A stretch of DNA of 64,000 nt from the NCBI RefSeq assembly GCF_001418015.1, contig NZ_LIQG01000024.1:1-64000 (forward strand). Reading direction: 5' to 3'. Numbering within the stretch: the stretch's first letter is position 1; every line of letters starts with the position of its first letter. The stretch comes from Lacinutrix mariniflava. GTDB taxonomy: Bacteria > Bacteroidota > Bacteroidia > Flavobacteriales > Flavobacteriaceae. The position numbers were made by a program, and so were the translations under genes. The notes below the pieces were generated by a model. It was not told the DNA's origin and searched no databases. It saw nothing but the letters and a program-made list of their open reading frames with translations. Below, one piece after another: positions 4,856 to 22,453 of the stretch.

Positions 4856-7213
4856 TTAATCAATAACCGTAAAACTAGCTTTGTTTTTTGTTTGAGAACT
4901 ACCACCAATCCAAACATTAAATTCTCCAGGTTCAACTTCCCATATTTTATTAACGGTATAGAATTGTAATGCTTTAGAATCTATAGAAAACGTAACAGTC
5001 TTAGTTTCTCCTGATTTAAGCATGATTTTTTGAAAGCCTTTTAATTCTTTTGTTGGCCGCGTTATACTTCCTACTAAATCTCTAATGTAAAGTTGTACAA
5101 CTTCTTCTCCGGTACGATCGCCTGTATTAGTAACATTAACAGTAGCTTTTAGGATTCCATTTGATTTTATTTCCGATTTAGAAATCTCTAAATTACTATA
5201 TTCAAAAGTTGTATAGCTCAATCCAAAACCAAAAGAATACAATGCCGATTTTGGCGCATCGCGATATCCTGAAAATGTAACATGCGTAGGATTATAAGGT
5301 CTTCCAGTATTTTTCTGATTGTAATACAAAGGCTCTTGACCAACGTTATGCGGAAAAGAAATAGGTAATTTACCCGACGGATTATAATCGCCAAAAAGGA
5401 CATCTGCAATAGCATGTCCGGATTGCGAGCCTAAATGCCAGCATTCTAAAATAGAAGGCACCAATTCCGTTGGCCGACTTAAATCCATAGGTCGGCCATT
5501 CATTAATACAATAACAATATTGGGATTCACTGCCTTTACAGCATTTAATAATTCCATTTGAAGTCCTTTAAAGCCAATATCTGTTTGACTTCGTCCTTCA
5601 CCGGTTTGATATGCATCTTCTCCAATAGCTAATAAAACAACATCTGCCTGCTTTGCTACCTCAACCGCTTTTTTAATACCAGAACGATCTGTAGTATTAA
5701 ATTTTAACGGATGTAAAAATTGATTTTCACCAGGCTCAACAGTAGGTATGGTTAAATCAATTCCTTTTGCATAATGTACTTTAGTATTTTTATCAACGGA
5801 AGCTTTTACGCCTTCTAATAATGAAATAGCAGAATTATACTGAGCTTTAGCTCTCCAATTACCTAGCGGAGCATTTTTATCGTCTGCCAAAGGACCAATA
5901 ACTGCAATACTTCCAATACTTTTGGAAAGCGGTAGTATATTATTTTCATTTTTTAAAAGAACAATTGACTTTCTAGCCACATCACGCGCAATTTCTAAAT
6001 TTTCTGGAGAATACACTTCGGTACGTTCTAGTTCTTCATTACAATACTTATAAGGATCCTCAAACAATCCCAATTCAAATTTAATTCTCAAAATACGTTT
6101 TACAGCATCATCTAATTGGGCTAGATTTACTTTTTTTTCTTTTAAAAGAATTTCTAAAAATGCCTCGTAAGCATAAGATTCCATATCCATGTCACTTCCA
6201 GCATTTAAGGCAATTTCCGCTGCATGCTTTTTATCTTTAGCATAACCGTGCGCTACCATTTCACCAATACTTCCCCAATCGGAAACCATAAAACCGTTCC
6301 AATTCCATTTTCCTTTTAACAAATCTCTTTGAAGCGCCTTATGTCCTGTTGCCGGAATACCATCAATATCATTAAAAGAATTCATAAACGTCGCTACACC
6401 AGCATCTGCAGCAGCTTTAAATGGAGGTAGTATGATGTTATGCAATTCGTGTTCTCCAATATTTACCGTATTATAATCACGGCCAGCTTCTCCAAAACCA
6501 TAACCTGCAAAATGCTTTGCACAAGCTGCTATTGTAAGATTACTAGACAAATCATTTCCTTGAAAACCATTTATTCTAGCTACTCCTATTTCAGAATTTA
6601 AAAAAGTATCTTCTCCAGCACCTTCCATAACTCTTCCCCAACGCGCGTCTCTTGATACATCTATCATTGGAGCAAACGTCCAGTTTAAACCTGATGCTGC
6701 AGATTCTTTTGCTGCAATAGCGGCAGATTGCTTTATAATGTCTAAATCCCAACTTGAACTTTCTCCTAATGGGATAGGAAAAATCGTTTTATAACCATGA
6801 ATGACATCGTAAGCAAAAATTAATGGAATTTTTAACCTAGAGTTATCCATAACAATACGTTGTGTTTCTCGAATTGAAGCTACAGATGTAACATTAAGCA
6901 TTGAGCCTACTTCTCCCTTTTTAAGTTTATCTAATTTATATTGATCTCCCTTTGAAGAAGAAGGGCCAGTAACATCCCATCCACCACTATACTGAACAAG
7001 TTGCCCAATTTTCTCATTAACTCTCATTAATGCTAATACAGAGTCTACTTTTTTTTCTGTAACACTACTATAAATATTAGTAGCGTTCACTTTTGTATTT
7101 AAATAAGCCGGTAAAAGCTGATTTTTTTCTTGTGCTGATAATTTACAATAACCTGAAATTACTAAAACAACCGAAATGATAAATTTGTAAAAAAATGAAG
7201 GAGATAATCTCAT
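4856..7213 (-). CDS. bglX: Periplasmic GH3 beta-glucosidase (BglX-like)
   Basis: Exo-acting glycoside hydrolase expected to release glucose from beta-gluco-oligosaccharides in the periplasm. A signal peptide (hydrophobic 8-27, then SAQ) precedes the GH3 N-terminal barrel. That barrel has GRVMEGAGEDTFL, the KHF motif at 233-235 and the nucleophile Asp312 in MVSDWGS. The GH3 C-terminal alpha/beta domain follows (SIVLLKNENNILPL, AIGEDAYQTGEGRSQ), then a fibronectin-III-like end (NTGDRTGEEVVQLYIRD). At 785 residues it is full length. It is the last gene of a three-gene run with the EEP protein (11-base gap) and the GDPD-GH16 fusion. This suggests it finishes oligosaccharides released by that GH16 domain. 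Confidence 0.92.
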   Translation of the reverse strand: MRLSPSFFYKFIISVVLVISGYCKLSAQEKNQLLPAYLNTKVNATNIYSSVTEKKVDSVLALMRVNEKIGQLVQYSGGWDVTGPSSSKGDQYKLDKLKKGEVGSMLNVTSVASIRETQRIVMDNSRLKIPLIFAYDVIHGYKTIFPIPLGESSSWDLDIIKQSAAIAAKESAASGLNWTFAPMIDVSRDARWGRVMEGAGEDTFLNSEIGVARINGFQGNDLSSNLTIAACAKHFAGYGFGEAGRDYNTVNIGEHELHNIILPPFKAAADAGVATFMNSFNDIDGIPATGHKALQRDLLKGKWNWNGFMVSDWGSIGEMVAHGYAKDKKHAAEIALNAGSDMDMESYAYEAFLEILLKEKKVNLAQLDDAVKRILRIKFELGLFEDPYKYCNEELERTEVYSPENLEIARDVARKSIVLLKNENNILPLSKSIGSIAVIGPLADDKNAPLGNWRAKAQYNSAISLLEGVKASVDKNTKVHYAKGIDLTIPTVEPGENQFLHPLKFNTTDRSGIKKAVEVAKQADVVLLAIGEDAYQTGEGRSQTDIGFKGLQMELLNAVKAVNPNIVIVLMNGRPMDLSRPTELVPSILECWHLGSQSGHAIADVLFGDYNPSGKLPISFPHNVGQEPLYYNQKNTGRPYNPTHVTFSGYRDAPKSALYSFGFGLSYTTFEYSNLEISKSEIKSNGILKATVNVTNTGDRTGEEVVQLYIRDLVGSITRPTKELKGFQKIMLKSGETKTVTFSIDSKALQFYTVNKIWEVEPGEFNVWIGGSSQTKNKASFTVID

Positions 7214-7224
7214 AAAATATAATA

Positions 7225-8100
7225 TTAAAATTCTAATTCAACAAAAACAGGAAAATGATCTGAAGGAAACTTAAAGTCAATCGCGCTTGAAAAGACAGCA
7301 TATTTATTAACTTTTAAATTAGATAATTTAGAAATTAAAATATAATCAATTCGTCTTGTAGCAAGTTCATTATACTTAAATCCATTGAATGTACCATCTG
7401 ATCCAAATTTAACTTTTGCTATGTCTTTAGAGTCATCCATCGTTGCTTTTGTTGATGAAATGACTTCACTATTTGGTTCCACATTAAAATCACCCATTAC
7501 TACTACAGGTAGGTTTTCTTTATTTACTAAACTTATTTTATCGAGAATAAGTTTTGTTCCTTCTTTTTGAGCCTCTGCCCCTATGTGATCTAAATGCGTA
7601 TTAAATACCCAAATTTTTTGGTTATTTTCTAACACCGTAAATAGTCCAAAAGTGCATATTCTTGGATAGGCAGAATCCCAACCTTTAGACATTTCGCTAG
7701 GCGTTTTTGACAACCAAAATGTATTTTCTTGTTCTACTTTTACTTTTTTTGAATTATAGTAAATTGCAGAATACTCACCTTTATTATCACCATCTCGTCC
7801 AGTACCAATATACTTGTAATCTGTTAATGAAGTATTTAAATCTTCAATTTGATTTGGCCTTGCTTCTTGCACTCCCATAATATCGGGCTCTAAAAATAAC
7901 ACTTGAGAACTAAAAAAATCTTTCCTGTTTGGCCATGCATTTTCTCCATCTGACGCTACATCTAAACGCATGTTATAGGTCATTACCTTTAGAAGTATTG
8001 GAGTTATATCATTTTCTGTATTTTGATTGGAGTTTCTTTTGGTTTCGCAACTAGCAAAAGCAATAAATACAAATCCAATAAATAATGTATTCCATTTCAT
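7225..8100 (-). CDS. Endonuclease/exonuclease/phosphatase (EEP) family lipoprotein
   Basis: A 291-residue lipoprotein (lipobox FASC, Cys18) with a complete EEP hydrolase domain: TYNMRLD, GVQEA (metal Glu), FNTHLDH, MGDFNVEP, RRIDYIL and SDHFPV. The fold covers DNase I, inositol-phosphate phosphatases and sphingomyelinases, all metal-dependent phosphoester hydrolases. The exact substrate cannot be read from sequence. Being exported and placed 3 bases after the GDPD-GH16 gene and 11 bases before the GH3 gene, it more likely acts on phosphoesters of an extracellular glycan or lipid than on nucleic acid. That is inference from context. No truncation or missing motif was noticed. Confidence 0.85.
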   Translation of the reverse strand: MKWNTLFIGFVFIAFASCETKRNSNQNTENDITPILLKVMTYNMRLDVASDGENAWPNRKDFFSSQVLFLEPDIMGVQEARPNQIEDLNTSLTDYKYIGTGRDGDNKGEYSAIYYNSKKVKVEQENTFWLSKTPSEMSKGWDSAYPRICTFGLFTVLENNQKIWVFNTHLDHIGAEAQKEGTKLILDKISLVNKENLPVVVMGDFNVEPNSEVISSTKATMDDSKDIAKVKFGSDGTFNGFKYNELATRRIDYILISKLSNLKVNKYAVFSSAIDFKFPSDHFPVFVELEF

Positions 8101-8103
8101 ATT

Positions 8104-9672
8104 TTAATGTTCTTTTTGGTAAACTCTAACATAATCTATCATCATTCTATTTGGAAAAGATTGTTCATCAATTCCTTTTCTCCCACCTAACATTCCGCCA
8201 ATTGCTACGTTAATCTTTAAATGAAAATCCTGATCGAAAGGCCACTCATGAGTTGTTTTGTGTTCATTTTTTATGTGGTTATAAACTTTTCCATCGAGGA
8301 TAAAATCCATGTGTTCTGGTGTCCATATAAGTGTATAGGTGTGGAACATATCATAAGGTTTATCAATGTAAATCTTTTTTCCTTTTTGAGTACCTTTCAT
8401 GTGGTTGTAAGATTTTGTATGAATGGTTCCAAAAATAGAATCAGCATCAAAACCAACATGTTCCATAATATCTATTTCTCCACATTCGGGCCAGCCAACA
8501 TTGCTATAATTTGCGCCTAACATCCAGAAGGCAGGCCACAATCCTACTCCTTTTGGGAGCTTTGCTTTAATATCAATACGGCCATATGTCCACTCAGCTA
8601 AATTTTTAGTGGTTAAACTTGCCGCAGTGTAATCTGCAAAGGCTTGATTTTTCCTCCAATTTTTAACGTCTTTATTTTCAAACCCAGCATTTTTAATTTG
8701 TTCTTTGTGAGATTCTAAGATTAGATAACCTTTTTCGACTCTTGCATTTTTTAAACTATCTGTATAATATTGTTTTTCTTGATTACGCTTCAACCCTATT
8801 TCATGACTCCATTTTAAAGAATCTGGTTTTCCGGAGTAATTAAATTCATCGCTCCAAACCAATTTATAATTAGATTGTGTTGGACTCACTTTTATTCTAT
8901 CAAAAACCAATTCTGGCTCATTGGTTGTAACATAGTCAAAGTCATTAGCTAAGAACCAATCAATATCGTCTGTTTTATTTATAGTCCAAGCATTTAAAAC
9001 TAAATTTAAACCTTTAGCCTCTTTAATCCATTCTGGGTTTTTTGAAAATTTATACCCTAAATAATCTAAGCCATCAATACCGTCTTTTTTAATCTCTTTT
9101 GGAGCTTTTGAACCATCTAAGTATTGAGTTTTTGCATTAGCATCTATTTCCTCTATACGCTTAAGAATTTCGTAACTAAAACTTATATAATAAGAAATGT
9201 AATTCTCTGCATTTAGGTCTTTAACTAATGCCATTACTTTATTGGTAATTTCAATATTTCTTGGTTTTATTTTAGATGGTTTTATTTCACATACCAATCC
9301 TGTGGAATTATTATTACTCATCCCAGCCAAAATATATTCTTTTAACGTTGGAAGTGACTCTCCATTAGCTAGCTTATGCACCGCTAATTCTTTATAGGTA
9401 GACTCCTCAACATTAAGATTGTTATAAGTAGCATCATGAGTAACAATAAGCACATTGTCTAGTGTCATTCTAACATCAAACTCTGAACCCGCGCAGTTTA
9501 ACTCTATTGCATGTTTTAACGAAGCAATAGAGTTCTCAGGAAGCCCATTGGCTTTCCAAGCACCACGATGTGCTATAACTTGATTATCTGCAAAAACAAT
9601 ATCTTTTGTAGTTATAGATGAGTCGCAAGAATTGAAACAAATAAAAACTAAAACAATAAAACTAAAACGCAT
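8104..9672 (-). CDS. Bifunctional lipoprotein: glycerophosphodiester phosphodiesterase + GH16 beta-glucanase
   Basis: One 522-residue frame holds two enzymes. After a lipoprotein signal (FNSC, Cys16), residues about 30-256 form a GDPD domain with all expected active-site residues: His35 in AHRGAW, PENS, metal ligands Glu64 and Asp66 in SEFDV, His79 in THD, and Glu129 in CEIKP. GDPDs release glycerol-3-phosphate from glycerophosphodiesters. Residues about 268-520 are a GH16 domain starting LVWSDEFNY, with GLWPAFWMLG and the catalytic EIDIME (nucleophile Glu399, acid/base Glu404). That motif has the extra residue seen in laminarinase/beta-1,3-glucanase members. Both halves look intact. It heads a tight run with the EEP and GH3 genes. 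The fusion suggests a beta-glucan with phosphoglycerol substituents; substrate is inferred. Confidence 0.9.
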   Translation of the reverse strand: MRFSFIVLVFICFNSCDSSITTKDIVFADNQVIAHRGAWKANGLPENSIASLKHAIELNCAGSEFDVRMTLDNVLIVTHDATYNNLNVEESTYKELAVHKLANGESLPTLKEYILAGMSNNNSTGLVCEIKPSKIKPRNIEITNKVMALVKDLNAENYISYYISFSYEILKRIEEIDANAKTQYLDGSKAPKEIKKDGIDGLDYLGYKFSKNPEWIKEAKGLNLVLNAWTINKTDDIDWFLANDFDYVTTNEPELVFDRIKVSPTQSNYKLVWSDEFNYSGKPDSLKWSHEIGLKRNQEKQYYTDSLKNARVEKGYLILESHKEQIKNAGFENKDVKNWRKNQAFADYTAASLTTKNLAEWTYGRIDIKAKLPKGVGLWPAFWMLGANYSNVGWPECGEIDIMEHVGFDADSIFGTIHTKSYNHMKGTQKGKKIYIDKPYDMFHTYTLIWTPEHMDFILDGKVYNHIKNEHKTTHEWPFDQDFHLKINVAIGGMLGGRKGIDEQSFPNRMMIDYVRVYQKEH

Positions 9673-9839: not shown

Positions 9840-11438
9840 TTAATATCCATCATTTTGAGGATAGCTAGCACCTAGCAAATCTAAATCTCTTTGTGCAATT
9901 GGCCAGTTAATGAAATGAGGCATCCAGTTAGTTCTAGGATCTTTTGTACCTAAATTTGCAGGAAATGCATCACCATCTCCAGCATAACTTGTTATTTGCG
10001 CATCTATTACATTTTGTCCCATACGTTTTAATGTAAACCAACGCTGCCCTTCGAAAGCTAATTCTCTTGCGCGTTCATCTAAAATAGCCTGCTCATCTAC
10101 ACTTGTTAAAAGTGAAGCATTTGCTCTATCTCTTACAGCATTAATATAAGGCAAAGGATCTCCTGATGATCTCATAATTGCTTCTGCAGCTATTAAATAA
10201 GTTTCCGCTAACCTATATACTAAAACGTTACCTCTTATTAAATATGAATCTTCATTACCATCTTCTTGACTAAACTTTATACAAGATGGGTGCATTCTCT
10301 TATAATAATTTTGATATGAACTAGCAGGAAATGGTGCATAATTATTTACTTCTTGACCAATATCATCTCCTGAAGTATAATAGTATTTTAATCTAAAATA
10401 GGTCTCGTTATCTCTGGTATCGTTAGGATCTTCAGCTATAAGGTTTAATAAATATTCATTTGGCAAAATACGCGAAAACCCTCTTCCTCCTTGATCGTTA
10501 TTAGATTCTATACCCGATATTTGAAAATACTGAGTAACATAGTTTGCATTCATCATTGTCTCTGCTCCTCCACCAAGAACCTCATCTATTGGAGATTGTA
10601 TTACAAATAACGATTCAGAATTATTTCTATCACCTGCAAAAACATCTGCAGTAGAACTCACTAAACTATGCGGTGTATCTGGACCTTCAATAACATCCAA
10701 GGCTTGTGCTTTAGCTTCTACCCAATCACCTTGCCACATAGCAACTTTAGCCTTCACATGCTTTGCTGTCCCTTTAGTTACTCGTCCAAAATCACGTATC
10801 CACTCTAAGTTTTCTAAAGCATAGTCTAAATCATTATTTAATAATGTGAAAATTTCTTCTTCAGACGATTTATCATTTACAACATCGAAAGCATTATCAA
10901 CTGTAACAGTTTCGGTAGTTACATAGATATTATTAAACATTCTATATAAATAGAAATAAGCGTGTGCTCTAAAGAATTTTGCTTCTGCTATAATCTCTTT
11001 TCTAACATCTTCATCCACACCTTCAACTACCTCAGCAGCATTGATAAGAGCTGTCGCTTTATTTGCAATATTATAATAGTGTTTCCAGAATAAAGTAGAT
11101 ACAAAATTAGCACCTTGATCGATAGGAGAAATACCTCTTTCGTATCTTCCCATAAGACCTGTATATCCTGTTCTACTAAAAGCCAAGTCGCTTCTAGAAG
11201 ACATTAAAACAGAACCCATGAAGTCTTCAGTACCATTATCATAACGATCTCTTTCAAACTTATATAAACTTACGACACCTGCTTTTAATCCTGACTCTGT
11301 GGTAAACACATAATCTGCATCAATTAATGTACTTGGTTGCTCTTCAAGATATTCTTCACATGAAGAGAAAGTAAATAGTAAGGTTAACATTAACAACATA
11401 CTATACTTTGTATTTTTATAAAAAAGTATTGTTTTCAT
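9840..11438 (-). CDS. susD-like: SusD/RagB-family surface glycan-binding lipoprotein
   Basis: Outer-membrane lipoprotein that captures oligosaccharides and lids the SusC channel. The signal ends in lipobox FSSC (Cys27), followed by acidic residues (EEYLEEQ) as is common in surface-exported Bacteroidota lipoproteins. TPR-like SusD helices are visible (AEAKFFRAHAYFYLYRMFN, LAETYLIAAEAIMRSSG, RERAFEGQRW-type segment ARELAFEGQRWFTLKRMG). At 532 residues it is normal length. It starts 19 bases after the SusC stop, so it is co-transcribed with it. Binding specificity cannot be read from the sequence; the linked GH16 and GH3 enzymes point to a beta-glucan. Confidence 0.92.
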   Translation of the reverse strand: MKTILFYKNTKYSMLLMLTLLFTFSSCEEYLEEQPSTLIDADYVFTTESGLKAGVVSLYKFERDRYDNGTEDFMGSVLMSSRSDLAFSRTGYTGLMGRYERGISPIDQGANFVSTLFWKHYYNIANKATALINAAEVVEGVDEDVRKEIIAEAKFFRAHAYFYLYRMFNNIYVTTETVTVDNAFDVVNDKSSEEEIFTLLNNDLDYALENLEWIRDFGRVTKGTAKHVKAKVAMWQGDWVEAKAQALDVIEGPDTPHSLVSSTADVFAGDRNNSESLFVIQSPIDEVLGGGAETMMNANYVTQYFQISGIESNNDQGGRGFSRILPNEYLLNLIAEDPNDTRDNETYFRLKYYYTSGDDIGQEVNNYAPFPASSYQNYYKRMHPSCIKFSQEDGNEDSYLIRGNVLVYRLAETYLIAAEAIMRSSGDPLPYINAVRDRANASLLTSVDEQAILDERARELAFEGQRWFTLKRMGQNVIDAQITSYAGDGDAFPANLGTKDPRTNWMPHFINWPIAQRDLDLLGASYPQNDGY

Positions 11439-11457: not shown

Positions 11458-14400
11458 TTAAAATTTTAAACGCATTCCAAAAGTGAAACTTCTAGCATCT
11501 GGATAACCTGTATCTGCATTAGAAAATGTGCTTCTAATGTTTACTTCTGGGCTGTAGCCAATGTAATCTGTATGTGTAAATAAATTTGATCCTGTTACAT
11601 AAAATCTAATTTGGTCTAAACCAATTTGTTCTAAAGCCGAATCTGGTAAAGAGTATCCTAAGCTAACAGTTCTTAATCTAACATAAGAAGCATCCTTCAC
11701 GGCCAACGCATTTAAATATAACGGCGTAGCATCGTTATTAGGTCTAGGAAATGTTGTAGACGGATTTTCTGGCGTGTAATAATCGACCTTTACACCATTT
11801 ACTTTTCCTTGTAAAGTTCCTCCATTATTAAAGTCTGATAAAAATGGGTTAACTTTTGTTGCTCCTTCTACCACATAGAAGTCTACAAACAAATCGAAAC
11901 CTTTATATTCTAAATTTGTAGAAAATGAACCAAACCAATCTGGATTTTGATCTGTAAACACACGATCATCTTGTGTTATTACTCCATCGCCGTTTACATC
12001 GGCAATTTTAATATCTCCAGGTCTTAAATCTGGTTGAGAAATAGTAGAATCTGGATTTGCTTGAGGTGCATTTGCGAAATCCTCACCTTCTTGCCAAATA
12101 CCATCAAATTGATATTGTCTAATAACTCCCACAGACTGTCCAACAAAATAATTGTATGTATCGTCTTCTAAAACAGGATTTCCGTCTCCATCGTTATATA
12201 ATTCTAATAACTTGTTCTCATTGTTAGACCAGTTAGTAGAAACAGACCATTTTAAATCGTCATTATTAATAATATTAGCCGTTAAGCTCACCTCTATACC
12301 TTTATTCTGTAGTTCTCCAGCATTAAAGTATGTAAAATTGTAACCTGTAATTGCAGGTACACCACGTTTTAATAATAAATCTGTTGTTCTAGCATCGTAA
12401 TAATTTACGTTTCCAGTTAATATATTATTAAATACACCAAAATCTAATCCTAAATTTAAGGTTGTAATTCTCTCAAATTTCAAGTTTGGATTAGGTAAGA
12501 TTGTAGATGGCGCATAACCTGAAGCCGACTGATCATCCAAAATATAATTTTGAGCATCTACTGTAAAAAGCGATGTATAAGCACGTCCTAAACTATTAAC
12601 TAAAGAACCATAACTTGCTCGTAGTTTTAGTTCTCGAATAGATTCTACGTTTTCTAAAAAGCTTTCTTTATGCATTTTCCATGCAAAAGAACCTCCGCCA
12701 TTGTTACTCCACTTATTATCTGCAGAATTAACAGAAGCTCCATCTCGTCTTACTGTTGCTTCTATTAAATACTTATCCATAAAATTATAACGTGCTCTAC
12801 CTAAGAAACCAACTAATCTCTGTTTGTTTTGATCTCTTTCAACAGAAACAAGACCAATAGCATTGGTTATTCCATTATAGCCTAAATCTTCGTTTGTAAA
12901 CCCTTGTCCTTGCGTAAAAGTTCTACTAAACTCTGTTTCTTGAGCAGACTGCACTAAAGTAACATCGAACTTATTGTTTTCGTTTATTGTCTTCTTGTAA
13001 GTTAATATGTTTTCAATTAAATAAGATTCTCTTAATTGATTATCTATTCTAGCAATACCATTATCATCATCTCCGGCAGAACTTAAAGAAGACAAATATT
13101 GACCTCTTTCAGAATTCCTTCTCGTAAAGTTTGTTTTTAGTTGGTATTGTAAATTATCTGTAATTTGCCATTGTGGCGTTACATTAATAACAAAATCGTT
13201 TCCTTTCTCATCATTATCCTGCTCTCTAAGATTCCATAATGGATTTGTTGCAGATGATTCTTCTCCACTAGGAAATTGTGTTAAATTTCCATTATCGTCG
13301 TAAGCTCTTCCTAATGGTGAAAATGTTATAACGTTTACATTGGCTGCTCTCTCGGTATCATCGTTTAATATATTTAAATCGAAATTAACAGAGACCTTAT
13401 CACTAATTTTTTGATCTACATTTAACCGTAATGTTTTTCTTGTATAGTTGGAAGTAGGTATTAATCCTTCCTCTTTAAAATAGTTAATACTACCAAAAAC
13501 CTTGGTACTTTCAGTTCCACCACTAATACTAATAGCCTGACTATTTACTATACCACTTTTTACTAATTCTTCTTCCCAATCTACAAATTGGTTATTGGCT
13601 ATAGACTCTAATTCAAGTTCAGAGAAAACAAAATCATCATCGGAATAAGAATCGTCTGCATTAGTCGCTCTGAAGGCTTCTCTTTTTAGTTGTGCAAATT
13701 CTTGACCACTATAAACGTCGAAGTTTTTTTCTATAGATTTTGTAGATAGAAAACCATGATAGCTCACCTGTATTTTTTTATTCTTCCCTCTTTTGGTTGT
13801 GATTAATACAACACCATTTGCTCCTCGAGAACCGTAAATTGCTTGAGCAGAAGCATCTTTTAAAAATTCGATAGACTGAATGTCGTCTGAATCTATATCC
13901 TCAATACCACCATCTCTAATAATACCATCTACTACGTAAATAGCGCTTACATTACCTTCAATAGAACCTTGACCTCTAAAAATAATATCTGAAGTTCCTC
14001 CAGGCCTTAAGGTTCCACCACCTACATTAACTTGTAGACCAGCAATTCGACCTCTCAACATTTCGTTAACATCTGATGTTGGTGTTAAAGTAGCTTTCGT
14101 TAAATCTGTTGTTGCTACAGCATTTACTAAATCACTTTTTCTTTGCGTACCATAACCAACAACTACCACTTCGTCTAGAGCATTAGCATCTACTTGTAAA
14201 ACTATAGTAGTTACTCCTCCTTTAATAGTTACGTCTTGAGGTATAAAACCTACATAAGAAACTAATAATAGACCTGCCGAATCTTTTACATTTAGAGTAA
14301 AGTTTCCATCAAAATCTGTTGATACTCCATTGCTTGTTCCCTTCTCAATAACCGAAGCACCTATTAAAGGCATATTATCTTCGGCGGAGAGCACAATACC

Positions 14401-14496
14401 TGTTACAGTAGTTTGAGCTAAAACAGCAAACGAACTACATATTAATAAAAGGCTACATAGCATTTTAATTTTTGGTTGTCGTAATTTAAATTTCAT
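11458..14496 (-). CDS. susC-like: SusC/RagA-family TonB-dependent outer-membrane transporter
   Basis: Imports oligosaccharides across the outer membrane using TonB energy. A signal peptide is followed by a carboxypeptidase-regulatory-like domain (TGIVLSAEDNMPLIGASV). Next come the TonB-box-like VVVGYGTQRKSDL, a plug (RGRIAGLQV, IYVVDGI, IQSIEFLKDASAQAIYGSRGANGVVLITTK) and a long beta-barrel ending in Phe (GMRLKF). The frame is open to 14529, but the ATG at 14496 (MKFKLRQPK) gives a cleaner signal sequence, about 1012 residues. The partner SusD follows 19 bases on. Expression is probably controlled by the adjacent membrane regulator through the repeats at 14757-14798. Confidence 0.93.
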   Translation of the reverse strand: MKFKLRQPKIKMLCSLLLICSSFAVLAQTTVTGIVLSAEDNMPLIGASVIEKGTSNGVSTDFDGNFTLNVKDSAGLLLVSYVGFIPQDVTIKGGVTTIVLQVDANALDEVVVVGYGTQRKSDLVNAVATTDLTKATLTPTSDVNEMLRGRIAGLQVNVGGGTLRPGGTSDIIFRGQGSIEGNVSAIYVVDGIIRDGGIEDIDSDDIQSIEFLKDASAQAIYGSRGANGVVLITTKRGKNKKIQVSYHGFLSTKSIEKNFDVYSGQEFAQLKREAFRATNADDSYSDDDFVFSELELESIANNQFVDWEEELVKSGIVNSQAISISGGTESTKVFGSINYFKEEGLIPTSNYTRKTLRLNVDQKISDKVSVNFDLNILNDDTERAANVNVITFSPLGRAYDDNGNLTQFPSGEESSATNPLWNLREQDNDEKGNDFVINVTPQWQITDNLQYQLKTNFTRRNSERGQYLSSLSSAGDDDNGIARIDNQLRESYLIENILTYKKTINENNKFDVTLVQSAQETEFSRTFTQGQGFTNEDLGYNGITNAIGLVSVERDQNKQRLVGFLGRARYNFMDKYLIEATVRRDGASVNSADNKWSNNGGGSFAWKMHKESFLENVESIRELKLRASYGSLVNSLGRAYTSLFTVDAQNYILDDQSASGYAPSTILPNPNLKFERITTLNLGLDFGVFNNILTGNVNYYDARTTDLLLKRGVPAITGYNFTYFNAGELQNKGIEVSLTANIINNDDLKWSVSTNWSNNENKLLELYNDGDGNPVLEDDTYNYFVGQSVGVIRQYQFDGIWQEGEDFANAPQANPDSTISQPDLRPGDIKIADVNGDGVITQDDRVFTDQNPDWFGSFSTNLEYKGFDLFVDFYVVEGATKVNPFLSDFNNGGTLQGKVNGVKVDYYTPENPSTTFPRPNNDATPLYLNALAVKDASYVRLRTVSLGYSLPDSALEQIGLDQIRFYVTGSNLFTHTDYIGYSPEVNIRSTFSNADTGYPDARSFTFGMRLKF

Positions 14497-14756
14497 TGGT
14501 TGTTGAGTTATATTAAAATTAGATATCAAAATTATCTCTTCGCACCGATGGCTTTATTTAAACCCACAATACGTTTTTGTAAATTTAAAAGCTTAATAAT
14601 GATAGTATGGTAAATTTTACCTCGATAAAAAACGAACATCGCAATATAAAACTCTAATTTTAAGAAAAATACACTCAAACATACAGTAAACACGGTTGCA
14701 AGGCCTTAATATTAAAATCCTATAAAAAAGAACCGAATTTAAAAAAAAAGACCTCT
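14497..14756 (-). other. Leader and promoter region of susC
   Basis: About 260 AT-rich bases without a gene between susC and its putative operator repeats. On the minus strand TATAGGATTTT near 14719 could be a -7 region lying about 30 bases downstream of the operator array, which would give a long 5' leader. I see no second open frame or clear terminator here. The promoter position is a guess. Confidence 0.35.
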
Positions 14757-14798
14757 GTAGTGGTAAAGTCGTGGTAAAAAACAACGCCGTCGTGGTAT
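14757..14798 (-). promoter_or_regulatory. Three phased direct repeats, putative operator for susCD
   Basis: Read on the plus strand: GTAGTGGTAA (14757), GTCGTGGTAA (14768) and GTCGTGGTAT (14789). The copies are 11 and 21 bases apart, about one and two helical turns, so all lie on one DNA face. Read on the minus strand the unit is TTACCACGAC. The array lies in front of susC and touches the stop codon of the LuxR-type regulator gene. I did not see a copy upstream of the GDPD-GH16 gene. Binding by the adjacent regulator is inference from position and repeat geometry. Confidence 0.6.
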
Positions 14799-17569
14799 TA
14801 GAATTTTAAGATATAATTAACTAAGCTATCATCATGGTTCAAATTCAGTCTTTTTCGTAATCTATATCTTTTGGTTTCCACGCTTTTAGTCGAAATATTT
14901 AATAATGGCGCAATTTCTTTAGACGATAAATTGAGTCTTAGATAGGCACAAAAACGTAGATCGTTAGGTGTTAACTCTGGATGTTGAGCTTTAATTTTAT
15001 CTAAAAAATCTTTATCGGCATTATTAAAAGCTTGCTTAAAGAATTTCCAATCCTTATTATTATTTAAATTAGTATCTATTAAATTTATTGCATCACCTAA
15101 ATCTTCTTTCGTAGTACTATTCTTCAACTCCTTTTTAATTTTATTTAGGAGTTCATTCTTTTTAATAATACTCATTGTGGAAATCACCAATTCTCTATTT
15201 TTACTTTCTATATCTTGATTTAATTTCTCATTTTGAATTTGAATGATTGTTTTTTCATTCTTTATCTGCTCATGCTTTAAAATTCGAAAGAAATAAAATT
15301 TGTAAGCCTTATGAATTAAAAAACCAAGACCTATCAAAACTAAAAAATAAATAACAAGTGCCATGTTAGAAAAAAACCAAGGTCTATTTATCTTAAAATT
15401 ATAATGACTTATGTTTTGCGACAACTTATTACCAACTTTCGCCCTAACCTCAAACATGTAATCCCCAAATGGTAAATTTTCGAATTGAACGCTGGTTTTA
15501 TGAGTCCAATCACTCCATTTATCTAAATGCCCATTTAATCTATATTGATAATTGACATCAAGATATTTATCAAACTGAGGTACAGAATATCCAAAAGTTA
15601 TTATTCCATTTTTATGATGAAAAACTCCATTTTTTTTAAGTGAAACGCCCTGAACTTTTTCTTCTAAATTTTTAATATTTATTTCGTTAAGATAAATACT
15701 ATACTCTTTTTGGTTTGCTATGCTCGCTAAATCTATAGTTAAATAACCATTAGTAGTTCCTAAAACATAAACTTCATTTTTTATGTGTTGAATATTTTCA
15801 AAACCCAAAACACCAGCCCTTAAATAAGACGGAATTGGAATATTGGTAATCTCGGGCTTATTAGTAAGGTTATTATTTTTTATAAAACTAATGTTGTTTT
15901 TAGAAAAGACCCAAAGTTTTCCTGTTTCGTCATATTCCATTTTACCAGAAGTATAATCCGTAGGAATTAACAAATTACTTAATAGTGTATCCTTACTAAA
16001 AACTGATGTATCTTTTTCATATTTAAAAATCCCATCATTGGCTGCATATAAAATAGTGTTACGGTAAGAGATTAAACTAGAACTTTTACTAATTGGAACT
16101 TCCGTATGTTGTATTAAGGACTTAACTTGATCTAACGACTTATTCAATTGCATACTATACAAACCTTTGTACTCATGATTAACAAAAATTTGATTAGAAG
16201 AATTGATTTCAAAAAATCTAGAAGAATTATTAAAACCATCTACTTTATGTTTTAATCTCCAATTACCATTAGTTTTTTCAAAAAGATACAACCCACTATA
16301 ATTACCTTGTAATAGCAAGTCTTCATGATTTGGTATTTTCTTATAATTCCAAGCCCCTAAAACAGAACTAATACTCTTGGCTTTATTGTTTTCAATTAAA
16401 AAAGTTCCAAGATGGTGTCCGCAGATTAAATTCTTATCGTTATCATTATAAAGACTCCAAACCTGGCCAGAAGTCCCTTCAATAAATTCAAAATCTTGAT
16501 TTTCAAAATCCAAAGATTTACTAAAAAGTCCTTGATTAGTACCAACGTAGAGTTTATTATCAAAAATTACAGTAGCATAAACAGTTCCTAAAACACCTTC
16601 ATAGTCAATAAACGTTCTAATTGGAGATGTTATATTAATACAGTTAATTCCATTATCTAAACCAGTCCAAACATTATGATCACTATCTTCAAAGAGAGAA
16701 AGAACAGTATTATTACTTAAACCCTTTTTTTGATTAATAATATACTCAACTTCTCCATTAGTATTTATTTTAAAAATACCATTGGAAATCGTACCAATAA
16801 TATAACTTCCATCTTCTAACTGAATACTATTAAACGCACTAATTCCTTTTAATTTCTCAATACCTGAAACCTCCCATTGTTCAAGTTTGTTATTATTTAA
16901 AAAGAAAAAACCCGAACTTCTAGTTAATAAAAGTATCTGATTGTCATGCTCAAAAATATTAATAACTCGATCTTTTAAAACAACAGAATCATTATTAACT
17001 AAACTTGGGTTTCCGTCAATTATCTTATAAACACCTTCGTTAGCGACATGATAGTAAATTTGATCACCAACCAAAAACACTTTATAAATAATATTTTTTG
17101 TTGAAATTATTTTAAAAGTTTCACTATTCTTATTGTAGAAGTAAAGACCATTTCCAGATTGAAATAAAATCCATTCATTATAATCGATAATATTCCAAAT
17201 ATGATCATCTTTTAAGCCTTCGTCCTTCAACTTAGGAATTAATGATTTGTATTCCAATTGCTTAAACTCGTTTTTACTCCAAAAGCCAAACTCCTCATAA
17301 CAACCTGTGTAAACTTTATCATCTATAACATTTACTGCTCGCATAACAGAATTATTTGGAGAACCATAACTCCTCCAAACCGAACCATTAAATTCTAACA
17401 AGCCTTTATTATTAGCCACGTATATAAACTTATCGCGTCCTTGAGAAATCATCCAATTTTGATTATCACCACCATAATCTGTAGCTATAAATTTTTCAAT
17501 AGGAGGTAAATCTTGCGCTTGAAGCGACAAGGTGAAAAACAAAATAATAATTGAGAAAATATGTTTCAT
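14798..17569 (-). CDS. Membrane-spanning propeller (Reg_prop/Y_Y_Y) LuxR-type regulator of the SusCD locus
   Basis: A 923-residue one-component regulator. A signal peptide (MKHIFSIIILFFTLSLQAQ) exports a large sensor of propeller repeats (for example NNTVLSLFEDSDHNVWTGLD, GNGLYFYNK). A Y_Y_Y domain follows (VNYQYRLNGHLDKWSDWT, FGDYMFEVRAK), then one membrane helix (near MALVIYFLVLIGLGFLI) and a cytoplasmic coiled coil. The C-terminal helix-turn-helix (about 866-923: LTPNDLRFCAYLRLNLSSKEIA, STKSVETKRYRLRKRL) is LuxR-like. Unlike hybrid two-component PUL sensors it has no kinase or receiver domain. The frame is open to 17671, but that extension translates the terminator at 17641-17676, so the ATG at 17569 is chosen. 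It likely activates susCD on sensing glycan fragments in the periplasm. Confidence 0.88.
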   Translation of the reverse strand: MKHIFSIIILFFTLSLQAQDLPPIEKFIATDYGGDNQNWMISQGRDKFIYVANNKGLLEFNGSVWRSYGSPNNSVMRAVNVIDDKVYTGCYEEFGFWSKNEFKQLEYKSLIPKLKDEGLKDDHIWNIIDYNEWILFQSGNGLYFYNKNSETFKIISTKNIIYKVFLVGDQIYYHVANEGVYKIIDGNPSLVNNDSVVLKDRVINIFEHDNQILLLTRSSGFFFLNNNKLEQWEVSGIEKLKGISAFNSIQLEDGSYIIGTISNGIFKINTNGEVEYIINQKKGLSNNTVLSLFEDSDHNVWTGLDNGINCINITSPIRTFIDYEGVLGTVYATVIFDNKLYVGTNQGLFSKSLDFENQDFEFIEGTSGQVWSLYNDNDKNLICGHHLGTFLIENNKAKSISSVLGAWNYKKIPNHEDLLLQGNYSGLYLFEKTNGNWRLKHKVDGFNNSSRFFEINSSNQIFVNHEYKGLYSMQLNKSLDQVKSLIQHTEVPISKSSSLISYRNTILYAANDGIFKYEKDTSVFSKDTLLSNLLIPTDYTSGKMEYDETGKLWVFSKNNISFIKNNNLTNKPEITNIPIPSYLRAGVLGFENIQHIKNEVYVLGTTNGYLTIDLASIANQKEYSIYLNEINIKNLEEKVQGVSLKKNGVFHHKNGIITFGYSVPQFDKYLDVNYQYRLNGHLDKWSDWTHKTSVQFENLPFGDYMFEVRAKVGNKLSQNISHYNFKINRPWFFSNMALVIYFLVLIGLGFLIHKAYKFYFFRILKHEQIKNEKTIIQIQNEKLNQDIESKNRELVISTMSIIKKNELLNKIKKELKNSTTKEDLGDAINLIDTNLNNNKDWKFFKQAFNNADKDFLDKIKAQHPELTPNDLRFCAYLRLNLSSKEIAPLLNISTKSVETKRYRLRKRLNLNHDDSLVNYILKF

Positions 17570-17640
17570 CTGTCTTGTAAAGATACTATTATACCATTGC
17601 AACTTTAAAATAGTAATAATAATTTTAAAAAAATGATCGA

Positions 17641-17676
17641 AAAAAAATGCCATTTCAACATGAATTGGCATTTTTT
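17641..17676 (-). terminator. Terminator downstream of glpF
   Basis: AAAAAATGCCA and TGGCATTTTTT flank a 13-base loop. With A-runs on one side and T-runs on the other it can work on either strand. It lies 23 bases past the glpF stop, so the glp transcript ends before the regulator gene. Confidence 0.8.
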
Positions 17677-17698: not shown

Positions 17699-18427
17699 TT
17701 AAGAAAGCCCCAACATTAGTAAGGCTGCTAAGCTACCACCAACTAAAGGAGCTACAACCGGAATCCAAGCGTAAGACCAATCGCTTTTCGCTTTATTTTT
17801 AATTGGAAGAATAGCATGCATAATTCTAGGTCCCAAATCACGAGCAGGATTAATAGCATAACCAGTTGTACCTCCAAGAGATAAACCAATTGACCAAACT
17901 AAAAAGGCAACTGGTAACGCTCCAAGAGAACCTAAACCAACTACAGTTTCGGTATCTGTAATACTAGCGTTTGTGAAATAAAATATAGTGAAGAGTAACA
18001 CAAAAGTTCCTATTGCTTCACTAAAAAAATTTGTAAATGTATTTCTAATTGCCGGAGCAGTACAGAAAACTGCTTTTTTTGCACTTGCGTCTTCTGTAGC
18101 TTCAAAGTGACTTTTATACATGAGCCAAACGGTTGAAGACCCAATCATGGCTCCAATCATTTGAGCTAAAACAAACAATGGAACATCTGCCCATGGAAAC
18201 TTTCCTGCTACTGCCAAAGCAACTGTTACTGCTGGATTAATATGCGCACCACTATGAGGTCCTGCAATAACCACCGCAACATAAACTGCTAAAGCCCATC
18301 CTGTTGTAATAACAATCCAACCACTATTGTTCCCAATGGTTTTATTTAATACAACATTAGCTACAACACCTCCTCCTAATAAAATTAAAATGGCGGTTCC
18401 AATAATTTCTGCTACAAATGGTGTCAT
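17699..18427 (-). CDS. glpF: Glycerol facilitator (aquaglyceroporin)
   Basis: MIP-family inner-membrane channel for glycerol uptake. Six hydrophobic segments surround two NPA half-helices: NPA at 64-66 (GAHINPAVTVA) and NPARD at 193-197 (GYAINPARDLGPR). An Asp following the second NPAR is characteristic of glycerol channels rather than water-only aquaporins. At 242 residues it has normal length. It starts 5 bases after the glpK stop, so it is translated from the same transcript as glpD and glpK. Confidence 0.95.
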   Translation of the reverse strand: MTPFVAEIIGTAILILLGGGVVANVVLNKTIGNNSGWIVITTGWALAVYVAVVIAGPHSGAHINPAVTVALAVAGKFPWADVPLFVLAQMIGAMIGSSTVWLMYKSHFEATEDASAKKAVFCTAPAIRNTFTNFFSEAIGTFVLLFTIFYFTNASITDTETVVGLGSLGALPVAFLVWSIGLSLGGTTGYAINPARDLGPRIMHAILPIKNKAKSDWSYAWIPVVAPLVGGSLAALLMLGLS

Positions 18428-18432
18428 CTTTT

Positions 18433-19935
18433 TTATTTTAAATTATTAGTTGTCCAGTATTCGAGAGCATCAATTGCTCTGTACCAACCTTTAATATTGG
18501 TTTCAGTTTCTGTTCTATCTTCAATTGGTTTAAACGTTTTATCTATTTCCCAAATATTTTGAATTTCTTCAGTACTTTCCCAATAACCAACAGCTAATCC
18601 CGCCAAAAATGCTGCGCCCATTGCTGTGGTTTCTACTGTTTTTGGTCGAACGGTTTGCGTGTTTAACACATCAGACTGAAATTGCATCAACATATTATTA
18701 ATCGTTGCACCACCATCTACTCGTAATTCTTGAATAGAAATATCCGCATCTGCCTCCATGGCTTTTAAAATATCCATAGTTTGAAATGCTATAGACTCCA
18801 AGGCAGCTCTTGCAATATGAGCATCTGTACTCCCTCTAGTTAACCCGAACAGTGTTCCTTTGGCATGTTGATTCCAATGCGGAGCTCCTAAACCTGCAAA
18901 AGCAGGTACAAAATAAACACCATCTGAACTATCTACAGAACAGGCAAGTTTCTCTACTTCAGAAGAATTTCTAATAATCTTTAAACCGTCACGTAACCAT
19001 TGTACAACGGCTCCAGCTATAAACACACTCCCTTCTAGAGCATAAGTTGTTTTTCCATTAATCTTCCAAGCGACTGTTGTTAATAAATTGTTTTTTGAAA
19101 CAATAGGTTTATCTCCAATATTCATGAGCATAAAGCAACCTGTACCATATGTATTCTTTACCATCCCTGGTTTTGTACACATCTGCCCAAATAATGCAGC
19201 TTGTTGATCGCCCGCAATACCGGCAATTGGAATTTTTGTATCGTAAAATGTTGATTTTGTGTGACCGTACACTTCACTAGATTGTTTTACTTTAGGCAAC
19301 ATGCTTTTTGGAATTGTTAACAATTCTAAAAGCTCATCGTCCCAATCCATTGTATTAATATTAAACATCAAGGTTCTGGATGCATTAGTAACATCTGTAA
19401 TGTGTTGTTCTCCTTTCGTAAAGTTCCAAATTAACCACGTATCAATAGTTCCTAAAATTAAATCTCCGGCTTCAGCCTTTTCGCGAGCGCCTTCAACATT
19501 ATCAAGAATCCATTTCACTTTAGTTCCAGAAAAATACGAATCTATAACCAATCCTGTTTTTTCTCTAACAAGATCATTCTTACCTTGTTTTTTTAACTCA
19601 TCACAATAATCTGATGTTCGCTTATCCTGCCATACAATAGCATTATACACTGGCTTCCCAGTATTCTTATCCCAAACAACAACGGTTTCTCGTTGGTTAG
19701 TGATACCAATAGCTGCAATATTCTGCGAATCGAGTCCTTTTTTTGCAAGCGCCTCTGCAGCCACACCCGTTTGTGTAGACCAAATTTCTAATGGATCGTG
19801 CTCTACCCATCCTGGCTTTGGAAAATATTGGGTAAATTCTTTTTGTGCCATAGACACGATATTACCTTTTTTATCAAAAACAATAGCCCTAGAGCTCGTT
19901 GTTCCTTGATCTAATGACAGAATATATTTTCCCAT
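18433..19935 (-). CDS. glpK: Glycerol kinase
   Basis: FGGY-family kinase converting glycerol to glycerol-3-phosphate with ATP in the cytoplasm. Begins [21 protein letters not shown], the family's phosphate-1 motif. It then shows [37 protein letters not shown] and the C-terminal [18 protein letters not shown] and [16 protein letters not shown] signatures. Its 500 residues are full length. It lies between glpD (53-base gap) and glpF (5-base gap) in a complete uptake-and-oxidation cassette. Confidence 0.97.
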
Positions 19936-19988: not shown

Positions 19989-21554
19989 TTATTTTAAAAC
20001 GTATTGGTCTGAAATTTCTATGAATTCAGATATTTGCTGTGTTCTCCAACCGTCTGTTTCATTTAGCTCCAAACGAATAATTTCACCAACCATTGGTGCA
20101 ATTTCTATAGCAGCTTTAGCATCTAAAAATAGCACTCTCACACGTCTTGCTAAAACATCTTCAATGGTTCTTGCCATTTCATGTCGTACCGCAAAAACAA
20201 CCTCAGCTTTTGTAAATTGTAATCTTGGATGCAAGCGTTCAGACAAACTAGGATTTTCTTCAATTAATTTCTCAATTTTCTTTTTATCCGTTCCATAAAT
20301 ATATAAATGGTTGGAACGATCTACAGTACCATTTGCTCCATGAATAAGTAAATCTTTCGTTGCGCACTTCGCGCTAGGTAATTTTTTTAATTCAATTATC
20401 TTATCTACAGTATCTTGAGCCATACGTCTATAAGTAGTCCATTTCCCTCCAGTGATGGTGATTAATTCAGAATCTGAAACTATAATTTTATGACTTCTAG
20501 AGATTTCTTTAGTTTTTTCAGATTTATCTTTTGGAGCCGCTAATGGGCGCAAACCAGCAAAAACACTCAACACATCGTCCTTAGTTGCTTTTTTATTTAG
20601 ATACCTATTGGCAGTTTCAAGGATAAAATCTACTTCTTCGTCTAATGGTTTTGGCTCTAAACTATGACTATCTAATAATGTATCTGTTGTTCCTACAACT
20701 ACTTTATCATGCCATGGCACCAAGAATAATACACGACCATCATCCGTTTTCGGGATCATGATTGCATCGTTTCCTGGCAAGAACGACTTATCAAAAACCA
20801 AATGAACACCTTGACTTGGTCTAATAGTGTTTTTAGCAGAAATATCATCCATTTTTAAAACCTCATCGGTAAAAACACCTGTGGCGTTAATTACTGTTTT
20901 TGCATGTAATACATATTCTTTATTTGTTTCTGCATCAATCGCGACAACACCATTAACTATGCCTTTTTCATCCTTTAAAAGATTTTTAACTTTACAATGA
21001 TTTATAGCAGTTGCTCCATTTTCTATGCAACTTTGCGCAATGTTTATGGCTAACCTAGAATCATCAAACTGACCATCATGATATACCACTCCTCCTTTTA
21101 GACCAGACGCCTTTAGAGTAGATAACCTTGATATAGTTTCAGATTTCTTTATTCTAACAGATTTCCCGAAGCTCAATTTCCCTGAAAGAAAATCGTAAAC
21201 CTTTAATCCAACCGTGTAAAAAATATTATCCCACAATCTATAATTAGGAATAATAAAAGATTGATTACTCACTAAATGTGAAGCATTTTTAAGCATTAAG
21301 CCTCTCTCGTACAAAGCTTCACGCACGAGATCAATATTACCTTGAGCTAAATACCTAACACCTCCATGCACCAACTTAGTACTTCTACTTGACGTTCCTT
21401 TTGCAAAATCGACTTGCTCTAGCAATAATGTTTTATATCCTCTCGTTGCACAATCTAAAGCAACTCCCAATCCTGTCGCACCACCACCAACGATAATAAC
21501 ATCCCAGTTTTTAGGAGTTTCTATCTCATTTATTAAGGCTTCTCTTTTGAACAC
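19989..21554 (-). CDS. glpD: Glycerol-3-phosphate dehydrogenase (FAD-dependent)
   Basis: Membrane-associated flavoenzyme oxidising glycerol-3-phosphate to dihydroxyacetone phosphate and passing electrons to the quinone pool. The Rossmann FAD motif (WDVIIVGGGATGLGVALDCATRG) lies near the N-terminus. GTSSRSTKLVHGGVRYL, TINATGVF-type NATGVFTDEVL, RPSQGVHLVFD and ITGGKWTTYRRMA mark the family. Its 521 residues are typical. The start codon is GTG (21552-21554); no ATG is near and the following residues are in family register. A TAnnTTTG box at 21583-21590 fits as its promoter, and the repeats at 21607-21647 fit as its operator. First gene of glpDKF. Confidence 0.95.
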   Translation of the reverse strand: MFKREALINEIETPKNWDVIIVGGGATGLGVALDCATRGYKTLLLEQVDFAKGTSSRSTKLVHGGVRYLAQGNIDLVREALYERGLMLKNASHLVSNQSFIIPNYRLWDNIFYTVGLKVYDFLSGKLSFGKSVRIKKSETISRLSTLKASGLKGGVVYHDGQFDDSRLAINIAQSCIENGATAINHCKVKNLLKDEKGIVNGVVAIDAETNKEYVLHAKTVINATGVFTDEVLKMDDISAKNTIRPSQGVHLVFDKSFLPGNDAIMIPKTDDGRVLFLVPWHDKVVVGTTDTLLDSHSLEPKPLDEEVDFILETANRYLNKKATKDDVLSVFAGLRPLAAPKDKSEKTKEISRSHKIIVSDSELITITGGKWTTYRRMAQDTVDKIIELKKLPSAKCATKDLLIHGANGTVDRSNHLYIYGTDKKKIEKLIEENPSLSERLHPRLQFTKAEVVFAVRHEMARTIEDVLARRVRVLFLDAKAAIEIAPMVGEIIRLELNETDGWRTQQISEFIEISDQYVLK

Positions 21555-21647: not shown

Positions 21648-21684
21648 CTATAGAATATAATCACTTCATATTGCTTCGTTTTTA

Positions 21685-21692
21685 TATATTTG
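21685..21692 (+). promoter_or_regulatory. TAnnTTTG box just before the glpR start codon
   Basis: TATATTTG lies only 5 bases before the ATG at 21698. If this box is used, the mRNA would begin at or next to the start codon, giving a leaderless or nearly leaderless message. No TTG is seen at the usual spacing; the nearest, at 21671, is only 11 bases upstream. Confidence 0.4.
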
Positions 21693-21697
21693 TTTAT

Positions 21698-22453
21698 ATG
21701 AAGAGACACGAAGACATACTAAATAGGCTTGCTAAAGAAAAACACCTCGAAGTTTTAGAACTATGTGAGATTTTAGATGTATCTGCAGTAACAATTAGAA
21801 AAGACTTAAAACTTCTAGAACAAAAAGGACTATTACATAGAACTCACGGCGGAGCATCTCTAGAAAATCCTTACATCAACGAACGTACTGTTATTGATAA
21901 GGAGAAGGTTTCCGTAGAAGAAAAAAATGGCATAGCCCAAATGGCTGCTAGCAGAATTGTAGAAAACGACTCTATATTAATTGCATCAGGAACAACGGTT
22001 CAAGCACTATCTAAATTTATTCAACCAAAAAACAAATTAACAGTAATTACATCTTCTCTTCATGTTGTGTTAAACTTAATTCACGATAAGAGTATTGAAA
22101 TCCTTCAACTTGGTGGCTACATTAGACATAGTTCCGCTTCTGTTATTGGTAATTACACTGAATATATCTTAAAGAATATTTCATGTAGTAAATTATTTTT
22201 AGGTGTTGATGGTATTGATTTGGAATATGGTTTATCGACAACCAATTTAGAAGAAGCTGAACTGAACAAAAAAATGCTGAATTCTGCTCAGAAAATTATT
22301 GTTTTAGCCGATTCTTCAAAGTTTGGAAAAAAGAGTTTTGCTCGCATATGCGACCTGTCTCAAATACATGAAATAATTACCGACAAAGGCATCTCCAGTT
22401 CCATTATAAAAAAACTTAAAGAGAAAGATATTAAAGTAACCATCGTTAATTAG
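21698..22453 (+). CDS. glpR: DeoR-family transcriptional repressor, probable glycerol regulator
   Basis: A 251-residue DeoR-type protein. The N-terminal winged helix (MKRHEDILNRLAKEKHLEV, VSAVTIRKDLKLLEQKGLLHRTHGGA) is followed by the sugar-phosphate sensor domain (ILIASGTTVQALSKFI, KLFLGVDGID, IIVLADSSKFG). Such repressors usually release DNA on binding a phosphorylated metabolite, here most likely glycerol-3-phosphate given the divergent glpDKF. The frame opens at 21671, but the ATG at 21698 begins the standard DeoR N-terminus and the longer form would overlap the promoter. It is followed 17 bases later by a sulfatase gene on the same strand, so the two may be co-transcribed. Confidence 0.85.
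   Translation: MKRHEDILNRLAKEKHLEVLELCEILDVSAVTIRKDLKLLEQKGLLHRTHGGASLENPYINERTVIDKEKVSVEEKNGIAQMAASRIVENDSILIASGTTVQALSKFIQPKNKLTVITSSLHVVLNLIHDKSIEILQLGGYIRHSSASVIGNYTEYILKNISCSKLFLGVDGIDLEYGLSTTNLEEAELNKKMLNSAQKIIVLADSSKFGKKSFARICDLSQIHEIITDKGISSSIIKKLKEKDIKVTIVN

Follow-up and report, generated by a model that had tools for sequence, protein, structure and literature searches.

A fused GDPD-GH16 enzyme in a SusCD locus of Lacinutrix mariniflava and its possible role in the use of glycerophosphorylated beta-glucan

The combination of a glycerophosphodiester phosphodiesterase (GDPD) domain with a glycoside hydrolase family 16 (GH16) domain in one protein is not new: it is already in the PDB as 7WW4 and 7WWC, both of the Pedobacter terrae protein A0A1G7XNR7. 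Their release dates from February 2023, hence the architecture and the domain placement have been public since then. They are deposited as beta-1,3(4)-glucanase only, 7WWC with laminaritriose bound, and no report of GDPD activity for this protein was found in the literature. What was deposited as a plain glucanase bears a second catalytic domain, apparently intact. In an excerpt of PMC12448869, 7WWC is assigned to Pedobacter terrae, with no accompanying publication. A 2015 metasecretome (PMC4666044) places the secreted Sphingobacterium RWS13-16, in the portion available, in CAZy GH16 and gives their best hits the name glycerophosphodiester phosphodiesterase. This double naming implies the same GDPD-GH16 fusion; RWS13-16 are entered as (hemi)cellulose enzymes, and in that portion of the paper the fusion passes without comment.

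Each of the two domains also has single-domain relatives of solved structure. The best single-domain GH16 structure (phmmer) is the Rhodothermus marinus laminarinase 3ILN (TMt 0.90), which has no GDPD domain. The Parabacteroides distasonis GDPD 3NO3 shares the fold of the GDPD domain (TMt 0.94, 34% identity) but is a single domain without glucanase. As for a possible substrate, the ndvB-dependent cyclic beta-(1,3)-glucan of Pseudomonas carries glycerophosphate (excerpts of PMC2997053 and PMC10237404), so that both bond types occur in one polymer. There is no evidence that the organism studied here meets or uses this glucan, and no title on how glycerophosphorylated glucans are consumed was found in the literature.

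We analysed a stretch of 64,000 nucleotides of L. mariniflava DNA, called the window throughout. Its initial annotation had described one uninterrupted frame joining GDPD and GH16, with His35, Glu64, Asp66, His79, Glu129, Glu399 and Glu404 in place and both active sites looking intact, and this description holds. By open reading frame analysis the frame is unbroken over its whole length (Table 1), and PF03009 and PF00722 score 75.7 and 80.4 bits on the protein against curated Pfam cut-offs of 23.6 and 22. The seven residues are invariant in all 24 aligned fused proteins, the window's included, as are Arg36, Asp80, Lys131, Trp394 and Asp401; judged from the sequence, both active sites appear intact. 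L034, a duplicate of G153, was left out of this alignment, in which L037 and L038 are 95% alike and the homologues are 45-68% identical to the window protein. We take His35, Arg36, Glu64, Asp66, His79 and Glu129 to be the catalytic set of the GDPD family (His/Arg, Glu/Asp, His, Glu). The ExDxxE catalytic motif of GH16, with its nucleophile and acid/base glutamates, is present as EIDIME (Glu399, Asp401, Glu404). Cys16 follows a hydrophobic N-terminus, and by eye a cysteine stands there in most Flavobacteriaceae homologues too; the fusion is probably a lipoprotein. In its own genome it is the only full-length GH16 match, a second match covering 41 model positions, and two GDPD matches exist besides it.

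Table 1. Positions of the fused enzyme, its domains and neighbouring genes in the window, and of the phospholipase C genes beside the Pedobacter-group fusions
Feature	Coordinates	Strand	Remarks
GDPD-GH16 fused enzyme	8104..9672	-	522 aa; ATG start; short linker; lipoprotein-like N-terminus (Cys16)
GDPD domain	8911..9570	-	PF03009, residues 35-254
GH16 laminarinase-type domain (Pfam core)	8128..8637	-	PF00722, residues 346-515
EEP (endonuclease/exonuclease/phosphatase) family protein	7225..8100	-	3 bp downstream of fusion
GH3 BglX-type beta-glucosidase	4856..7213	-	NF011678 over cut-off
SusD-like glycan-binding lipoprotein	9840..11438	-	
SusC-like TonB-dependent transporter	11458..14529	-	
Regulator	14798..17671	-	Reg_prop, Y_Y_Y matches; LuxR-type HTH (GerE just under cut-off)
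MIP-family channel, GlpF-like	17699..18427	-	glycerol specificity inferred from neighbours
Glycerol kinase GlpK	18433..19935	-	TIGR01311 over cut-off
Glycerol-3-phosphate dehydrogenase GlpD	19989..21554	-	above cut-off for Pfam DAO and DAO_C; best NCBIfam match below cut-off
DeoR/GlpR-type repressor	21671..22453	+	DeoRC, HTH_DeoR over cut-off; divergent from glpD
S1-type sulfatase	22471..23952	+	CSPSR motif
Phospholipase C genes, Pedobacter group	L122:16040-18475; L125:114-2516; L127:334-2703		TIGR03396

Modelling of both domains, proposed as a check by the initial annotation, agrees with the architecture. The AlphaFold2 model, built from a 22-sequence alignment (window and pattern-scan loci), has a pLDDT of 90.9 and a pTM of 0.84. 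Its top two Foldseek matches in the PDB are 7WWC and 7WW4, the multidomain beta-1,3(4)-glucanase. Over both domains it superposes on 7WWC with a TM of 0.88 (query) or 0.95 (target), an rmsd of 2.0 A and 46% identity in about 500 columns. The order and relative placement of the two domains are the same over residues 29-520. The joint between them, from the last GDPD helix to the first GH16 strand, is short and of nearly constant length in model and alignment. The closest structures to the GH16 domain are laminarinases (7WWC, SCLam 6XOF and 3ILN).

Other proteins with both domains, which the annotation had advised searching for, are found in many genomes. In the family scan the full-length fusion is present in at least 14 of 397 genomes, the window's own among them. 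The class scan finds it in 8 of 395 (own, G125, G119, G711, G634, G475, G567, G733), three of these overlapping with the family scan's matches. A pattern-seeded scan in which each species was represented by a single genome yielded 25 loci, six of them with the full fusion: those of Winogradskyella luteola, Algibacter pacificus, A. miyuki, a Saccharicrinis MAG, a groundwater Bacteroidetes MAG and a Chitinophagaceae MAG, where one of the six, L034, duplicates the record G153. An assembly or frameshift artefact is thus ruled out by fused homologues in other genomes.

On the minus strand of the window the genes run GlpD, GlpK, GlpF-type channel, regulator, SusC, SusD, fusion, EEP, GH3. With SusC and SusD paired, and carbohydrate enzymes and a regulator next to them, this region has the make-up of a polysaccharide utilisation locus (PUL). 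Structure searches with SusD, SusC and GH3 did not narrow the substrate range. The nearest solved relatives of the EEP protein are 3MPR and 4C1R (4C1R being a mannosyl-6-phosphatase; E 2.1e-47), and we propose that it is the phosphatase of the locus. The EEP family also includes nucleases and phosphodiesterases. 3MPR and 4C1R presumably serve in yeast-mannan loci, whereas their relative in the window belongs to a beta-glucan locus. A DeoR/GlpR-type gene stands beside GlpD in other loci too. Homologues of the sulfatase, 68-78% identical, occur in nine other loci at varied positions near EEP, GH3 or glp genes, and the sulfatase is more conserved than the fusion itself. Among solved structures its closest relatives are carrageenan sulfatases; we could assign it no sulfate-related role in a beta-glucan locus, and the gene is not predicted by a locus for phosphoglycerol-bearing glucan. 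Elsewhere in the window, at 31067-32209, a single 380-aa frame contains HPPK (FolK) and deoxynucleoside kinase, both over the Pfam cut-off.

For comparison, 28 loci with GDPD and GH16 were tabulated, the window excluded; a 29th, G312, has both, with the GDPD at its far end. Seventeen of the fused loci are of Flavobacteriaceae type (13 from the family scan plus L033, L035, L036 and G711), and the EEP gene adjoins the fusion in 16 of them. Within 15 kb they hold SusC in 17/17, GH3 in 11/17, GlpK in 9/17 and a sulfatase match in 8/17, while EEP and GlpK are found within 15 kb in none of the six other fused loci (L037, L038, G634, G475, G567, G733). Among the tabulated loci the flanks extend to just 10 kb for L033, L036, L037 and L038 and less far for G047 and, at one end, for L035. 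GlpK is also near two of five split GDPD and GH16 loci (G225, G133). In 12 control GH16 loci without GDPD, 20 kb each and picked by hand from GH16-only rows of the family scan, there was no EEP, no sulfatase of the window type and no GlpF, GlpK or GlpD; GH3 was present in six.

The SusCD setting that the initial annotation had proposed to look for is present in the Flavobacteriaceae-type loci and absent from the Pedobacter group (G475, G567, G733), none of whose three loci has a match to SusC, EEP or glp genes within 15 kb. The name of this group follows from G713, which has the same genus label and equals L045, Pedobacter quisquiliarum. A large gene divergent from these fusions was considered as SusC and rejected, as it is DUF4175. 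Downstream of the fusion all three loci carry instead a phosphocholine-specific phospholipase C (TIGR03396 over cut-off), on the same strand and about 20 to 230 bp away. The window fusion differs from these three in lying in a SusCD-EEP-glp locus.

The phospholipase C suits the degradation of lipids, or phosphocholine-bearing glucans. In the first case the fusion would have two substrates, GH16 acting on algal or fungal wall beta-glucan and GDPD on membrane-lipid glycerophosphodiesters, the two being joined for the eating of dead cells. Homologues acting on unrelated substrates were what the initial annotation had named as counting against a common one, and the gene beside all three Pedobacter-group fusions keeps this case alive. 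Glycerol catabolism suits lipid head groups equally well, and G373 and G336 combine SusC and calcineurin-like phosphoesterases with GDPD and glp genes but have no GH16, so that GDPD and glp genes would serve other phosphodiesters there. However, among the compared loci the phospholipase C is limited to those of the Pedobacter group: a phmmer search of their 1472 ORFs (some loci counted twice) returned only the three genes, and a tblastn search of the window was negative. The Flavobacteriaceae-type fusions have in common one SusCD pair, often GH3, and a sugar-phosphatase-like EEP. Moreover, the short conserved linker and the 7WWC-like domain arrangement suggest one substrate over mere co-secretion. 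We consider two separate substrates, the chief alternative to a common one, unlikely.

The glycerol genes allow a closer look at what the GDPD domain may release. Rows were picked by hand from the matches listed, a single GH16 row for each genome; among them GlpK is no more than 20 kb away in 10 of 20 GDPD and GH16 loci against 0 of 43 GH16-only loci (Fisher p 1.4e-6, relatedness ignored). The 43 controls are genomes with a listed GlpK; GH16 and GlpK are on different contigs in 33 of them, and in the ten same-contig pairs the distance is about 250 kb or more. The ten coupled loci, among the matches listed, belong to nine genera and show four gene orders. In the first the glp genes lie upstream of SusC, in most cases preceding the regulator; in G070 they come after GH3, in G133 they follow GH31 and esterases, and G225 has the order GlpK-GlpF-GDPD-GH16. 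With four orders and nine genera, inherited order alone is hard to accept as the cause, and chance synteny as the sole cause is rejected by the four orders together with the GH16-only comparison. In the other ten of the 20 loci, among the matches listed, glp genes are not nearby, G047 being uninformative (7.9-kb contig); for four of these ten (G153, G173, G181, G312), no GlpK is found in the genome at E<=1e-60.

The same coupling is seen at GDPD loci without GH16 (G157, G373, G336), hence it follows GDPD and not the glucan. This suggests that the GDPD in these loci serves to catabolise a glycerol diester; to place that diester on the glucan is one step more, taken from the fusion. In L130:1469-19259 and L131:4136-17979, SusC, calcineurin-like phosphoesterases and a GDPD stand by GlpF, GlpK, GlpD and a DeoR gene without GH16, and a SusD-like gene was confirmed in L131. 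These two are candidate loci for the use of other glycerol phosphodiesters.

The GDPD domain might also act on a different glycan phosphodiester, of sugar-phosphate-sugar or teichoic-acid-like type, with glycerol incidental. GDPD-fold enzymes of the agrocinopine type work on sugar phosphodiesters, the EEP relative is named mannosyl-6-phosphatase, and half of the loci, among the matches listed, have no glp genes nearby. The repeated coupling with GlpF, GlpK and GlpD in differing arrangements argues against this possibility, which we find quite unlikely.

Free glycerol phosphate is probably dephosphorylated before uptake, since no GlpT passes the cut-off of its model in 22 genomes; weaker matches occur in 12 of the 22, the best at 185 bits against 632. 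The cut-off is strict, being reached in only 2 of 14 control genomes, and the presence of a divergent transporter is therefore possible. The need for dephosphorylation would account for the EEP gene and for the pairing of glycerol channel and kinase. In osmoregulated glucans the phosphoglycerol comes from phosphatidylglycerol and would yield sn-glycerol-1-phosphate, which is no direct substrate of GlpD. If the group is added in this way, the product of the fusion may be sn-glycerol-1-phosphate, which EEP would convert to glycerol, to be re-phosphorylated and catabolised through the glp genes.

The history of the two domains is not that of a single unit. Neither the fused GDPDs (AU p 3e-8) nor the fused GH16s (AU p 2e-7) form one clade, and both trees reject a single ancestral fusion, merely inherited, as the whole story. 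The main Flavobacteriaceae GDPD clade includes GDPDs without an attached GH16 (G157, G269), thus the GH16 half seems to be lost at times. In the split loci G133, G322 and G143 the GDPD is near the fused clade and the GH16 is of a different lineage (p 4.5e-5, for a group defined post hoc from the tree). Because both domain trees are non-monophyletic and split loci hold another GH16 lineage, the pairing appears to have been made or remade repeatedly, by fusion, fission, loss or swapping. Two further arrangements were seen. The stretch of G157 (L089:9796-11541) has the order regulator-SusC-SusD-GDPD-EEP with glp genes upstream and no GH16. In G225 the GDPD and GH16 genes are adjacent and share a reading frame, but a stop codon separates them, which contradicts the listed 557-aa open frame.

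These results bear on whether the GDPD domain could be a structural or binding module of a plain laminarinase for ordinary laminarin, as the deposition of 7WW4/7WWC simply as beta-1,3(4)-glucanase and the laminaritriose in 7WWC would allow. Yet all checked GDPD catalytic residues are invariant in the fused proteins, the domain is retained in loci that seem to have lost their GH16 or exchanged it for another (G157, G269, G133, G322, G143), and all 12 ordinary laminarinase loci are free of EEP and glp genes. We regard such a passive role as very improbable.

We therefore lean, with some reserve, towards a fusion whose target is a glycerophosphorylated beta-1,3-glucan, which it would cut open and free of its glycerol phosphate, a phosphatase then releasing glycerol for GlpF, GlpK and GlpD. 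The fusion would be a surface or periplasmic enzyme of the SusCD polysaccharide-utilisation locus. Its GH16 domain would make internal cuts in the glucan backbone, and its GDPD domain would take off glycerol phosphate, so that the charged substituents no longer block digestion. SusC and SusD would take up the glucan pieces, from which GH3 would release glucose. Acting as a phosphatase, EEP would split phosphate from the glycerol phosphate set free, or from sugar phosphate left over, and so yield a neutral product. Glycerol would then enter through the GlpF-type channel and be burnt by GlpK and GlpD. We infer that phosphodiester and glucan belong to one molecule, in which direction GDPD cleaves, that EEP acts as phosphatase, and where in the cell the fusion is located.

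As for the glucan itself, the initial annotation had suggested a beta-glucan with phosphoglycerol groups, such as bacterial periplasmic glucans. The first part is supported by the SusCD locus, the phosphatase relationship of EEP and the coupling to glycerol catabolism, the substrate still being deduced from these; the second is too broad, as the GH16 domain is laminarinase-like. From such a domain a beta-1,3 glucan is expected, perhaps a 1,3/1,6 one, given the GH30 gene that follows the fusion in L037 and the same family in L038. A glycerophosphorylated beta-1,3-glucan of the Pseudomonas ndvB type fits better than a beta-1,2 backbone of the E. coli type, which we judge unlikely as substrate from what is known of the GH16 family. 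Enzymes for a beta-1,2 backbone are the beta-1,2-glucanases of GH144, GH162, GH186 or GH189, and the endo-enzyme of the window is a GH16. It is quite possible, though we put this forward tentatively, that these loci form an undescribed class of PULs dedicated to glycerophosphorylated beta-1,3-glucans, with a two-headed enzyme, an EEP phosphatase and dedicated glp genes; the logic of such a locus (fusion, SusCD, EEP and glp genes) was not found in print in the literature.

If this is true, phosphoglycerol-bearing beta-1,3-glucans would be common enough, above all in the habitats of Flavobacteriaceae, for the two domains to have been paired repeatedly. The fusion and its locus would then be a concrete enzyme and locus for the removal of glycerophosphorylated glucans and would provide a genetic marker for this polymer in environmental communities. 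For the bacterium itself, they would open a route to sugar, glycerol and phosphate from one molecule.
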